64,000 bases of DNA. It comes from Bradyrhizobium oligotrophicum S58. Lineage in GTDB: Bacteria; Pseudomonadota; Alphaproteobacteria; Rhizobiales; Xanthobacteraceae. The notes beneath the pieces are model-generated. The model saw only the letters and a program-made list of their open reading frames with translations. It did not search any database and was not told the DNA's origin. Below are positions 24,177-32,771 of this stretch, piece after piece. The position numbers were made by a program, and so were the translations under genes. Where the stretch lies: assembly GCF_000344805.1 (NCBI RefSeq), contig NC_020453.1:2480001-2544000 (forward strand), in the 5' to 3' direction. Numbering within the stretch: position 1 is the first letter of the stretch; each line of letters opens with the position of its first letter.

Positions 24177-25049
24177 TCAGAGGAGGTCGGCGATCGAATG
24201 GCCCTGCAGCTCGATGCTGAGCCCCTGCATGCCGAGATCGGTGATCTCGCCGCCCATCGCCTTCAGGCTTTCCTCGCGGATCAGCGACATCAGCCCGCGC
24301 CGTAGCGCCAGGAATTCAGACGACATCATCATGGCCTGCTGGCGCGGCCGTTCCAGCGGAATCTTGATCTCGGCCTTGATCGAGCCGGGGCGGGCCGTCA
24401 TGCAGTAGACCCGGTCGGACAGGAAGATCGCCTCGTCGATGTCGTGGGTGACGAACAGCACCGAGATCTTCAGCCGTTGCCACATGTTGGTGAGGATCTG
24501 CTGCATGATGATCCGGGTCTGGGCGTCGAGCGCGCCGAACGGCTCGTCGAGCAGCAGCACCTTGGGACCGGTGGCGAGCGCACGCACGATGCCGACGCGC
24601 TGTTTCATGCCGCCGGAGAGACGCTCGGGATAATGGTTCTCGAATGCCTCGAGGCCGGCGAGCCCGAGCAACGTGCGCGCCGCGCGTGCGCGCTCGAACT
24701 TCGGCATGCCGCGCATCTTCAGCCCAAACTCGACGTTCTCGCGCACCGTCTTCCAGGGAAACAGCGAATATTGCTGAAACACCATGCCGCGTTCGGCGCT
24801 CGGCCCGGTCACGGCGTTGCCGTCGACCGTTACGACGCCGCTGGTCGGCTCGAGGAAGCCCGCCACGGCGTTGAGCAGCGTCGACTTGCCGCAGCCCGAG
24901 GGGCCGATGATCGAGACGAACTCGCCAGGCTCGACATGGATCTGGGTGTCGGTGACGGCCTCGACCGCGCCGTCGATGGTCTCGTAGCTCAGGGCGAAGT
25001 TGCGGACCTCGATATGGCCCTGTCTCATATTCGCTGCGGCTTGGCTCAT
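24177..25049 (-). CDS. ABC importer ATPase, SsuB/TauB/NrtD type
   Basis: 290 residues. Walker A is GPSGCGKST, the Q loop VFQQYSLFPWK, the signature LSGGMKQR, and Walker B VLLLDEPFGALD, with a downstream switch His in VTHDIDEA. This subgroup energises import of sulfonates, nitrate, bicarbonate, thiamine precursors and similar small molecules. The ATG at 25049 overlaps the permease stop by ATGA. The longer open frame upstream is a shadow of the permease gene. Confidence 0.93.
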   Translation of the reverse strand: MSQAAANMRQGHIEVRNFALSYETIDGAVEAVTDTQIHVEPGEFVSIIGPSGCGKSTLLNAVAGFLEPTSGVVTVDGNAVTGPSAERGMVFQQYSLFPWKTVRENVEFGLKMRGMPKFERARAARTLLGLAGLEAFENHYPERLSGGMKQRVGIVRALATGPKVLLLDEPFGALDAQTRIIMQQILTNMWQRLKISVLFVTHDIDEAIFLSDRVYCMTARPGSIKAEIKIPLERPRQQAMMMSSEFLALRRGLMSLIREESLKAMGGEITDLGMQGLSIELQGHSIADLL

Positions 25050-25915
25050 CGCGACCTCCAGGGCATCACCAACTGTCCGGCAGCGCGGATCACGAGGCTC
25101 GAGCCGAGCCCGAGCACGCCGATTGCGATCATGCCGAGCGCGATGTCGGCATATTGGACCAGCGAGTACGCCTCCCAGGTGAAGTAGCCGATGCCGAACT
25201 GTCCGGAGATCATCTCGGCCGCGATCAGCGACACCCATGCGACGCCCATGCCGACGGTGAGGCCGGTGAAGATGTGTGGCAGCGAGGCCGGGAAGTAGAC
25301 CTCGCGGAAGATCGCGGTCTCCCGCGCCCCGAGGCATTTGGCGGCGCGTACGAGCACGGGATCGACCAGCGTCATGCCGTGCAGCGTGTTGAGCAGGATC
25401 GGGAAGAACGAGCCGAGGAAGGTGATGAACACGATGCTCTGTTCGTTGGTCGGCCACAGCATGATCGCCATCGGCACCCAGGCGATCGCGGGGATCGGGC
25501 GTAGCACCTCCGCGACAGGAAAGACGATCTCGTGCACCAGCCTGAAGCGGCCCATGATCAGTCCAAGCGGCACGCCGACGATCGCAGCCAGCGAGAACCC
25601 GATGAAGATCCGGCGGCAGCTGAGCAGGATGTGCATCAGGAATTTGGGATCATGGATCGCCTTGGTGAAGCTCGCATAGACCGCCAGCGGCGCCGGCACG
25701 TTGGTGAACTTCACGACGAAGACGACGCGGTAGGTCGTCAGCAGGTGCCAGGCGATCAGGAACATGAGCAACGATGCGGTGCCGATCAGCAAGGCGCGCA
25801 GCCTGTCCTGGTTGAGGCGAAACCAGCGCACCGCACGAGCGGAGAATTCCGGCCGGCTCGGCGGGATCGCGGCGCCAGGCGTGGCGGTTGCCGCGGCCTG
25901 GTCGGGCGACGCCAT
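25046..25915 (-). CDS. ABC importer permease, SsuC/NrtB type
   Basis: 289 residues with about six membrane helices and a BPD permease EAA-type loop (AAKCLGARETAIFREVYFPASLP). The ATG at 25915 follows the binding-protein stop by 14 bases; a TTG six codons earlier would overlap that stop and cannot be excluded. The order binding protein, permease, ATPase is standard for this importer class. Confidence 0.92.
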   Translation of the reverse strand: MASPDQAAATATPGAAIPPSRPEFSARAVRWFRLNQDRLRALLIGTASLLMFLIAWHLLTTYRVVFVVKFTNVPAPLAVYASFTKAIHDPKFLMHILLSCRRIFIGFSLAAIVGVPLGLIMGRFRLVHEIVFPVAEVLRPIPAIAWVPMAIMLWPTNEQSIVFITFLGSFFPILLNTLHGMTLVDPVLVRAAKCLGARETAIFREVYFPASLPHIFTGLTVGMGVAWVSLIAAEMISGQFGIGYFTWEAYSLVQYADIALGMIAIGVLGLGSSLVIRAAGQLVMPWRSR

Positions 25916-25929
25916 GAAAGCGGGGCTGC

Positions 25930-31557: not shown

Positions 31558-31791
31558 ATGCCTCTTGCAACCTATCAGACGTCGGTTCCGGTCGTGGTCG
31601 ACGACGCCAAATGCATTGCCGACAAGGGCTGCACGGTGTGCGTCGACGTCTGTCCGCTCGACGTGCTCAGGATCAGCGACATGACCGGCAAGGCCTTCAT
31701 GGCCTATGACGAGTGCTGGTATTGCATGCCCTGCGAGGCGGATTGCCCGACCGGCGCCGTCACCGTCAACATTCCCTATCTGCTGAGGTGA
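31558..31791 (+). CDS. AprB-like 2[4Fe-4S] ferredoxin
   Basis: 77 residues with two cysteine sets: CIADKGCTVCVDVCP and CWYCMPCEADCP. The first has the widened spacing seen in AprB. It lacks the C-terminal tail by which true AprB wraps AprA, and is half its length. It begins 21 bases after the flavoprotein and is the expected electron carrier between it and the NADP reductase. Confidence 0.9.
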   Translation: MPLATYQTSVPVVVDDAKCIADKGCTVCVDVCPLDVLRISDMTGKAFMAYDECWYCMPCEADCPTGAVTVNIPYLLR

Positions 31792-31793
31792 TC

Positions 31794-32771
31794 ATGTCGA
31801 GCCCGTTCGAATCCTACGACGATCTCGACGACGCCGACGAGCGGCTCGGCGCCGCCGATCCGGCGGAGCGACGGGTCGCGATCATCGCGTTGGGACATTC
31901 CGGCGATGCCGCGGCGGTCGCACATCTCGCGAGGATGGTGACCGATCCCGACGCCGGCGTGCGCCAGCAGGTTGCGATGGCGCTCGGCGAGTTCGACGGG
32001 CCGGAGGCGGCCGAAGCGCTGGTGCAGCTGCTCGTCGATCCCGAGCGGATCGTCGCGTCGGCTGCCGCCGAGAGTCTCGCCGAGTTCAAGGATCCCGCGT
32101 CGGCCGACGCCATCCTGCCGCTGGTGAAACACGCCCATGCCTTCGTTCGCACGGGAGCGCTGCGCGCGCTGAAGGAGCTGCGGCGCAAGGATACGCTGAA
32201 GCCGGCGCTGGAGGCGCTGCAGGATCCGGATGCCGCGGTCCGCGTGCAGGCGATCGGCGTCATCGGCTTCCTCAAGCTGGAAGAGTCGATTCCCGCGCTG
32301 ACGGCGCTGATCGGCGATCCCGACGCGCATGTCCGGCGCGCCGCAGTCAGCGCGCTCGCGTTCTCGCACATGAAGATCGCGGCCGAGACCATCACCCGGG
32401 CGCTCAAGGATTCCGACTGGATGGTGCGAGAGATGGCAGCCGAAACGCTCGGCCTCAACATCAATGGCGCGGTCGCGGCTGATCCGCTGATCCACTGCTT
32501 GGCGGACGAGTTCTGGCAGGTGCGGTTGAAGGCGATCCGCAGCCTCGGGCGAATGAAGATCCTGCATGCGGTGCGGCCGATCGGCCATTGCATCACCCAT
32601 GAGCAGGCCAATCTGCGGAAGGAGGCGGCGGCTGCGCTCGGCGAGATCGCCGCGCTTGACGGCGAGCCGTTCCTCGCTTTGGTCGCCAACGATCTCGATC
32701 CGGACGTGCGCAAGAACGCGAGATGGGCGCTGCATCAGATCGCCGCGAGCAAGGCCCGGGCTGGCTCCTAG
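31794..32771 (+). CDS. HEAT/PBS-lyase-repeat protein
   Basis: 325 residues made almost wholly of about nine helical repeats of roughly 31 residues (for example DPDAGVRQQVAMALGEF, DPDAAVRVQAIGVIGFL, DPDAHVRRAAVSALAFS). There is no signal peptide or catalytic signature. Such proteins are scaffolds or assembly factors, or act on tetrapyrroles. GAGGTG lies before the ATG, two bases after the ferredoxin stop, so expression is coupled. A chaperone for the flavoprotein/ferredoxin pair is the natural guess. Confidence 0.9.
   Translation: MSSPFESYDDLDDADERLGAADPAERRVAIIALGHSGDAAAVAHLARMVTDPDAGVRQQVAMALGEFDGPEAAEALVQLLVDPERIVASAAAESLAEFKDPASADAILPLVKHAHAFVRTGALRALKELRRKDTLKPALEALQDPDAAVRVQAIGVIGFLKLEESIPALTALIGDPDAHVRRAAVSALAFSHMKIAAETITRALKDSDWMVREMAAETLGLNINGAVAADPLIHCLADEFWQVRLKAIRSLGRMKILHAVRPIGHCITHEQANLRKEAAAALGEIAALDGEPFLALVANDLDPDVRKNARWALHQIAASKARAGS

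Follow-up and report, generated by a model that had tools for sequence, protein, structure and literature searches.

What does a bacterium do with a gene cluster that joins an importer for a small compound to a flavoprotein and its electron supply? The question is raised by a stretch of 64,000 nucleotides from the genome of the soil bacterium Bradyrhizobium oligotrophicum S58 (a single contig of 8.26 Mb; genome positions 2,480,001–2,544,000), hereafter the window, in which nine genes at positions 24177–32771 encode an ATP-binding cassette (ABC) importer whose binding protein ends in a NosL-like tail, a Crp/Fnr-family regulator, a DUF971 protein, a ferredoxin–NADP reductase (Fpr), a flavoprotein, a two-cluster ferredoxin and a HEAT-repeat protein. 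Family scans placed all nine genes where an earlier sequence-only reading of the window had put them, and in the families that it had named. The set is probably a real, unnamed way of handling sulfonate-type sulfur compounds. At a probability of roughly 45%, we would read it as a horizontally spreading module for the uptake and reduction of a sulfonate-type organosulfur compound.

Co-conservation of the importer and the flavoprotein

The flavoprotein gene (29794–31536, plus strand) encodes a member of the adenosine 5′-phosphosulfate (APS) reductase/fumarate reductase superfamily that belongs to NCBIfam family NF006131 (1054.4 bits, cut-off 587), while the binding-protein gene (25930–27351, minus strand) encodes an SsuA/TauA-like protein with the NosL-like C-terminal tail at residues 373–462. 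An NF006131 flavoprotein was present in 21 of 398 Pseudomonadota genomes. Of these 21 genomes, 20 also encode the NosL-tailed binding protein by profile search at E ≤ 1e-60, compared with none of the 377 genomes free of the flavoprotein (Fisher p 8e-33, uncorrected for relatedness), so the importer and the flavoprotein are co-conserved. It was on this joint conservation of the transporter and flavoprotein halves that the sequence-only reading had been staked beforehand, and the two halves held together. The sole flavoprotein genome without the binding protein was G363; in G068 both genes are present, 2.9 Mb apart on one contig, and in G052, one of the 20, a stop lies within the binding-protein frame.

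The same partnership was seen at the level of the locus. Loci were taken from whole genomes of the window’s relatives and of the phylum (20 loci), from public genome contigs (at least 80) and, later, from genomes of Pseudomonadaceae and Burkholderiaceae (40; both family names inferred), and gene content was determined by searching 100 loci with the proteins of the window (tblastn), together with gene-family clustering. Among plasmid records, 54 held a match and 14 regions were read, the Variovorax region without annotation. The count of 102 diverse loci leaves out 47 of the 52 loci L053–L104 as well as L047–L049, L051 and L052, nearly all of them Bradyrhizobium; L043 and L123, apparently one contig, are counted twice in both this set and a set of 82 loci. 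Within 12 kb of the flavoprotein, the 102 loci encode the ferredoxin in 99 cases, the HEAT protein in 100, DUF971 in 87 and the NosL-tailed binding protein in 82. All three loci with no ferredoxin nearby belong to Hyphomicrobium, and the HEAT protein is absent from one short contig and in one further locus is fused, hence has no separate gene.

Sulfonate-linked context

Against the SsuA-family model TIGR01728, the window’s binding protein scored 123 bits, below the cut-off of 163.5. Its solved relatives are TauA (6ssy) and SsuA (3uif and 2x26), with a nitrate transport protein (3e4r) as a weaker one. The NosL tail that had been assigned to it draws its support more from the family than from the window’s copy: 12 of 32 binding proteins, the window’s among them, matched NosL at E ≤ 0.001 and one cyanobacterial copy reached 29.2 bits; the window’s own copy, at 23.8 bits, falls just below the Pfam gathering score of 24.

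In the 20 of the 102 loci that have no NosL-tailed binding protein within 12 kb, SsuA was sought within 6 kb as a possible replacement. It was found in seven, which represent four lineages (three Hyphomicrobium loci, Nostoc, one Pseudomonadaceae locus and two loci of one Burkholderiaceae genus). Three of the four swapped SsuA proteins that were scanned exceeded the TIGR01728 cut-off, and the Pseudomonadaceae one scored 151 bits; in the Hyphomicrobium loci, SsuD also lies beside SsuA. At the same settings, SsuA was found in none of 17 control stretches (250 kb, two genomes, unmatched).

Further, YeiH-type exporters (PF03601) occur within 12 kb in 20 of the 82 loci, and TauE in four, although 20 module genomes that were tested carry between none and two YeiH copies each. 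YeiH neighbours were observed in Stutzerimonas-like bacteria (name inferred), Bradyrhizobium/Afipia, Mesorhizobium/Chelativorans, Roseibium/Labrenzia, Rhodobacterales and cyanobacteria. About 14 kb or less from the core, plasmids of Sinorhizobium, Cupriavidus and Nostoc encode enzymes of sulfonate use or sulfonate importers: the Sinorhizobium americanum plasmid has ssuD, SfnB, TauD and importers for sulfate or sulfonates, and the Cupriavidus pinatubonensis plasmid a DmoA-like monooxygenase and an SsuA-type importer. The Nostoc neighbourhood includes metX and an O-acetylhomoserine aminocarboxypropyltransferase gene. Many loci show none of these sulfur-assimilation neighbours. Because of the binding-protein structures, the SsuA swaps, the sulfite/sulfate-exporter families and the sulfur-assimilation neighbours, context, and context only, points to a substrate among sulfonate-type sulfur compounds.

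The importer shares its binding-protein, permease and ATPase families with SsuABC and TauABC, and in some lineages SsuA replaces the binding protein beside the core. Unlike those systems, the window proteins score under the Ssu and Tau cut-offs, the binding protein has the NosL-like tail, and the cluster contains no SsuD/SsuE or TauD.

The flavoprotein and its ferredoxin

Among solved structures, the flavoprotein comes closest to an archaeal 3′-phosphoadenosine 5′-phosphosulfate (PAPS) reductase, in its alpha subunit (8a8o, E 5e-59), and to AprA (1jnr/2fja, E 2e-38). Its scores against the AprA models were low, with 161.6 bits for TIGR02061 (cut-off 641.75) and 277 of 557 bits for a second model. 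Residue correspondences were read by hand from the alignments with these structures, and we take the active-site residues of AprA to be Arg265, which binds the sulfonyl group, Asn74 and His398. Arg265 aligns with Leu250, a leucine in 83 of 83 family sequences, and Asn74 with N64, which is likewise invariant (83/83). H359 (83/83) aligns with a histidine of the PAPS reductase 8a8o, the stretch around His398 of AprA lying outside the printed AprA alignment, and a nearly invariant KVHH loop falls at a gap of the AprA alignment. Many other residues, H129 and R206 among them, are invariant in the family. An AlphaFold model of the flavoprotein, built from 14 sequences, had a mean predicted local distance difference test (pLDDT) score of 55 and was too poor for use.

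The adjacent gene (31558–31791, plus strand) encodes a 77-residue 2[4Fe-4S] ferredoxin with eight conserved cysteines. It aligns to positions 2–65 of the 132-position AprB model and so lacks the AprB tail, as had been claimed from the sequence; equally, the window’s cluster holds no sulfate-activation gene. AprAB and the archaeal PAPS reductase thus share with the window system the superfamily of the flavin adenine dinucleotide (FAD) subunit and an adjacent gene for a two-cluster ferredoxin. Unlike AprAB, the window system has leucine for Arg265, lacks the AprB tail and sulfate activation, and is tied to an importer and a HEAT protein. Judged by these alignments, it is not AprAB. The flavoprotein is a member of NF006131 (PRK08275), and NF010374 (PRK13800) describes the flavoprotein joined to the HEAT protein; both names denote families of sequences, under the label “fumarate reductase/succinate dehydrogenase flavoprotein subunit”.

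Comparison with AsfAB

The closest described system is asfRABC of Pseudomonas putida S-313, which, in the portion of the source at hand, comprises a reductase, a ferredoxin, a binding protein, an ABC importer and a LysR regulator for aromatic sulfonates (PMC4267179). The first four of these stand together in the window cluster as well. The asf regulator is of the LysR family. The usual regulator of the window module is Crp/Fnr or GntR, but two cyanobacterial plasmids have a LysR gene beside that of the flavoprotein, and in the window a LysR gene that is not conserved follows the HEAT gene. The HEAT protein, DUF971 and the NosL tail, all part of the window module, are unmentioned for asf in the available text of PMC4267179 and PMC2864759. 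For Cupriavidus metallidurans CH34, AsfA and AsfB have been assigned to Rmet_4334/5 (available text of PMC2864759).

We recognised the CH34 genome (G936) by a contig that agrees with pMOL30 (NC_007971.2) at every one of its first 1000 bases. It yielded no NF006131 match at E ≤ 1e-60; the best-scoring relative was 27% identical (E 3e-24) and the highest identity was 29%. Since a genome with published AsfA and AsfB holds no member of NF006131, the window family is apparently not AsfA, provided that the published CH34 assignment is right, and we rejected AsfA as the identity of the flavoprotein. No protein named AsfA was among the best 120 matches of each of three protein searches.

CH34 does encode, at L279:8782-10763, a distant flavoprotein of the FrdA/AprA superfamily (549 residues, 25% identical over 430 aligned columns) with its own 111-residue two-cluster ferredoxin; facing the two are an importer of the SsuABC kind and a gene resembling those of amidohydrolases. 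This pair is possibly AsfAB, or else a third system of the same architecture. Because CH34 has this separate flavoprotein and ferredoxin facing an Ssu-like importer, the flavoprotein–ferredoxin–importer architecture, as judged from sequence, exists in at least two distant forms.

No function or substrate assignment for the gene set was recognised in open-access full texts, subscription literature lying outside the search. With asfRABC failing the identity test in CH34, the remark of the sequence-only reading that it could name no known pathway with this set still stands within that scope.

Promoter motif and regulators

The shared promoter motif that had been reported for the cluster is real. 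The sequence CAACTAAT(TGC) occurs at four intergenic sites of the cluster (27432, 28723, 28798 and 29714), and the palindrome GCAA-CTAA-TTGC or its first half is found before the binding-protein gene, in the space between the DUF971 and Fpr genes, and before the flavoprotein gene. The individual elements are an operator-like half motif before the binding-protein gene (GGCAACTAATCTA on the minus strand, 27432–27439), the palindrome GCAACTAATTGC between the DUF971 and fpr genes (28722–28733, plus strand), GCAACTAATCGA before fpr (28797–28808, plus strand) and ACAACTAATTGC before the flavoprotein gene (29713–29724, plus strand). With up to two mismatches, the 11-mer CAACTAATTGC has 12 matches in the window vs. 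4.6 expected, and both exact matches lie inside the cluster.

In 1.09 Mb, made up of a 10-kb segment of the window and the loci of 52 relatives, CAACTAAT occurs 155 times vs. 8.4 expected from base composition; in 10 relatives whose sites were listed, the number per relative ranges from two to four. Among 77 further loci, the bare octamer was found 34 times vs. 17 expected; Bradyrhizobium-like loci (L106, L113 and L129) account for eight of the sites listed, and the remaining ones lie mostly upstream of DUF971, flavoprotein, Fpr or binding-protein genes in alphaproteobacteria. The whole window genome contains 11 exact RCAACTAATYG sites, three of them in the cluster, and open reading frames read without a family scan showed no obvious sulfur gene behind the other eight. 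A genome-wide regulon was rejected on these counts, and because three of the 11 exact sites fall in the cluster, the motif is best read as a putative operator of the cluster’s own Crp/Fnr protein (27509–28309, minus strand), whose gene family occurs in 34 of the 82 loci. Elsewhere, a GntR-family gene was found in 49 of 59 loci of a mainly beta- and gammaproteobacterial set, and Crp/Fnr in many alphaproteobacterial loci; in two cyanobacterial plasmids a LysR gene adjoins the flavoprotein gene.

Distribution and gene order

Protein and contig searches identified Bradyrhizobium as the nearest relatives of the window. Within the window’s genus, the flavoprotein exceeded the cut-off in 13 of 25 genomes, with one additional fragment, whereas other families of the order, sampled with 16 genomes, gave no match. 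It occurs in 90 of 298 Pseudomonadaceae and 79 of 220 Burkholderiaceae genomes (one below cut-off), about a third of those sampled, and in 15 of 60 Cupriavidus genomes (one below cut-off). The module is patchy yet common across the sampled genomes. Two genomes (L252 and L253) of a different genus in the family of Cupriavidus have flavoproteins that share 89% identity with the copy on the Cupriavidus pinatubonensis plasmid (L133), whereas most other beta- and gammaproteobacterial copies stand at 67–84%, suggesting recent transfer.

In the window, the genes for DUF971, Crp/Fnr, the binding protein, the permease and the ATPase form a minus-strand set, opposite to Fpr followed by the flavoprotein, the ferredoxin and the HEAT protein, and such a divergent arrangement of two gene sets prevails in Bradyrhizobium. 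Most beta- and gammaproteobacterial copies form one run of GntR, flavoprotein, ferredoxin, binding protein, permease, ATPase and HEAT, often with DUF971. Rhodobacterales, Roseibium and Mesorhizobium show the order DUF971, flavoprotein, ferredoxin and HEAT, then the importer with copper/thiol genes. The importer lies upstream in two cyanobacterial plasmids, which have Mrp at the position of DUF971.

The importer ATPase (24177–25049, minus strand) has SaoA (264 bits, cut-off 360) and TauB (246 bits, cut-off 357), and also NtrCD, as its best named models, all below cut-off. The permease (25049–25933, minus strand) is SaoP/NtrB/TauC/SsuC-like, again with every model below cut-off. The DUF971 (GBBH-like_N) protein (28369–28659, minus strand; 96 residues, 43.3 bits, cut-off 22.8) is the sole match of its family in the window genome at E ≤ 0.001. 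An Mrp/NBP35 iron–sulfur (Fe–S) carrier stands in the place of DUF971 in cyanobacteria and beside it in Stutzerimonas-like loci (L135, L145, L146 and L186–L190 across the two groups), a pattern hinting at a role in Fe–S assembly for the free-standing DUF971 protein.

The Fpr-type reductase (28905–29681, plus strand) scored 148 bits against PRK10926 (cut-off 390). A gene of the window’s kind lies within 12 kb in only 31 of the 82 loci, so that another reductase must serve elsewhere. The HEAT-repeat protein (31794–32771, plus strand) is encoded together with the flavoprotein by a single gene on an actinobacterial plasmid. Across 65 loci, and uncorrected for shared ancestry, evolutionary distances correlated between flavoprotein and HEAT protein with r 0.90, between binding protein and HEAT protein with 0.60, and between flavoprotein and binding protein with 0.55.

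On plasmid pTcM1 of Acidithiobacillus caldus (L134:6361-14035), GntR, flavoprotein, ferredoxin, HEAT and FdxA genes were found without a NosL-tailed binding protein; this locus also encodes a protein of 1153 residues with a pyridine-nucleotide-disulfide oxidoreductase domain.

Upstream of the cluster, at 19360–23084 on the minus strand, the window encodes a thiol:disulfide protein of the DsbD type and a metallo-beta-lactamase-fold protein (22131); the second, judged from its sequence perhaps a persulfide dioxygenase, matched nothing in the 100 loci. The genes on the other side (32796–39133) appear to form an uptake set of their own, with a LysR regulator, a solute-binding protein, a TOBE-domain ABC ATPase and an oxidoreductase of the DAO family. 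The LysR gene (32796–33713), convergent to the HEAT gene, had weak matches (28–30% identity) in just three of 100 loci. This gene, a second Crp gene (23379) and that of the metallo-beta-lactamase-fold protein were all rejected as members of the cluster, as they had no or weak matches beside the core in the 100 loci.

Discussion

How might the parts act together? By family resemblance, the SsuABC/TauABC-like importer with its NosL-tailed binding protein would import the compound, and Fpr would pass electrons from the reduced form of nicotinamide adenine dinucleotide phosphate (NADPH) to the two-cluster ferredoxin. From there, as the adjacency of the genes suggests, electrons would reach the FAD of the flavoprotein, which may reductively split a sulfur–oxygen group off the imported compound, possibly via a flavin–sulfite intermediate. 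In view of the exporter neighbours, the product would be sulfite, which the cell would assimilate or, where YeiH/TauE-type proteins are present, might export through them. The fusion and the parallel distances make the HEAT protein a likely close partner of the flavoprotein; DUF971, or Mrp in its stead, may help to build Fe–S clusters, given the Mrp/NBP35 replacement in cyanobacteria. Control would lie with the local Crp/Fnr protein, or with the GntR-family protein in most beta- and gammaproteobacterial copies.

A more specific form of this scheme is oxygen-independent, ferredoxin-driven reductive desulfonation, in which a flavoprotein with a rebuilt sulfonyl site (leucine for arginine, and the KVHH loop) removes sulfite from the imported organosulfonate by itself; the HEAT protein would be its constant partner, and the binding protein carries a NosL-like domain. 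We put it forward tentatively and regard it as doubtful.

Several observations weigh against a module for sulfonate uptake and reduction. The arginine that we take to hold the sulfonyl group in AprA is replaced by leucine throughout the 83 family members. The control for the SsuA swaps is weak, as it covers two genomes only and its settings missed the divergent Ssu-like binding protein at L279, and 13 of the 20 loci without a NosL-tailed binding protein are also without SsuA (L105, L107, L122 and L129 among the 13 are short contigs of 4.8–12.9 kb). YeiH was not found within 12 kb in 62 of the 82 loci, and the only copy in the window genome lies 2.2 Mb off. The window genome has an ordinary SsuD elsewhere, so that the module should not be needed for alkanesulfonates; this sole SsuD match over cut-off is at 6.89 Mb, the cluster at 2.50–2.51 Mb. 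Acidithiobacillus has the core on a plasmid, yet has no evident need to scavenge sulfur. Lastly, 12 alphaproteobacterial copies come with SCO1 and many of these also with PCuAC and TlpA, copper/thiol functions for which a role in sulfonate handling gives no reason.

As an alternative, Fpr, ferredoxin and flavoprotein may only supply electrons to an oxygenase of the SsuD/TauD type, encoded elsewhere, that cleaves the sulfonate with oxygen. Such a role has been proposed for AsfAB in aromatic desulfonation, where the two proteins are described, in the part of the source available, as transporting electrons for the oxygenation of the carbon–sulfur bond (PMC4267179), and TauD-like, DmoA-like and SsuD proteins are encoded within 12 kb in eight, four and three of the 82 loci, respectively. 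However, no oxygenase is constant: the commonest of those sought reaches eight of 82 loci, compared with 99 of 102 for the ferredoxin and 100 of 102 for the HEAT protein. The many invariant residues of the flavoprotein, moreover, fit an enzyme with a substrate of its own. We consider electron supply alone unlikely.

The copper genes bear on a second alternative, in which the substrate is a copper-binding sulfur oxyanion or ligand (e.g., thiosulfate, a polythionate, an S-sulfo-thiol or a dithiocarbamate) and the NosL tail, together with SCO1, PCuAC and TlpA, keeps copper off. The NosL-like tail itself would suit such a role. SCO1 was found in 12, PCuAC in 10 and TlpA in seven of the 82 loci, all alphaproteobacterial, and Hyphomicrobium loci have as neighbours a rhodanese (L110) and a sulfur transporter of the YedE type (L117). 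The copies with SCO1 are those of Rhodobacterales, Roseibium, Mesorhizobium and relatives (L108, L111, L112, L114–L116, L124–L127, L130 and L131), where PCuAC, TlpA or a cytochrome c is often near the NosL-tailed binding protein. However, no cysteine column was conserved at 60% or more among 70 binding-protein sequences, the 12 kb around the beta- and gammaproteobacterial and the Bradyrhizobium copies in the 82-locus set showed no copper genes, and the SsuA swaps favour sulfonates. A copper-binding ligand is quite unlikely as the substrate.

A system outside sulfur metabolism, taking up and reducing an organometal or other small compound in analogy to the Sao system, is improbable. NosL and MerB share a fold, and of all NCBIfam models the ATPase and the permease score highest against SaoA and SaoP, but the scores fall far under the cut-offs (264 of 360 bits for SaoA, 150 of 295 for SaoP), and the context of the loci is one of sulfur. 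An assimilatory APS or PAPS reductase akin to the Methanothermococcus thermolithotrophicus enzyme, whose alpha subunit is the best solved relative of the flavoprotein, was rejected as highly improbable on account of the low AprA scores, the leucine at the Arg265 position, the lack of an AprB tail and the tie to an importer, and no sulfate-activation gene was noticed on reading the recurrent neighbour families, a reading that included no family search aimed at such genes.

Sulfur in soil is mostly organic, sulfonates being one of its two major forms, and the bacterial routes of sulfonate release described in the available part of the same source use oxygenases (PMC4267179). The module for uptake and reduction of a sulfonate-type compound proposed here is widespread, both in Pseudomonadaceae and Burkholderiaceae at the frequencies given above and in many rhizobia, and its strict partnership of importer and enzyme raises the question of which sulfur compounds depend on it. 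Should the flavoprotein itself carry out the desulfonation, this would be new reductive chemistry, and genomes and metagenomes, in which the protein is now labelled as a fumarate reductase/succinate dehydrogenase, would be read differently.

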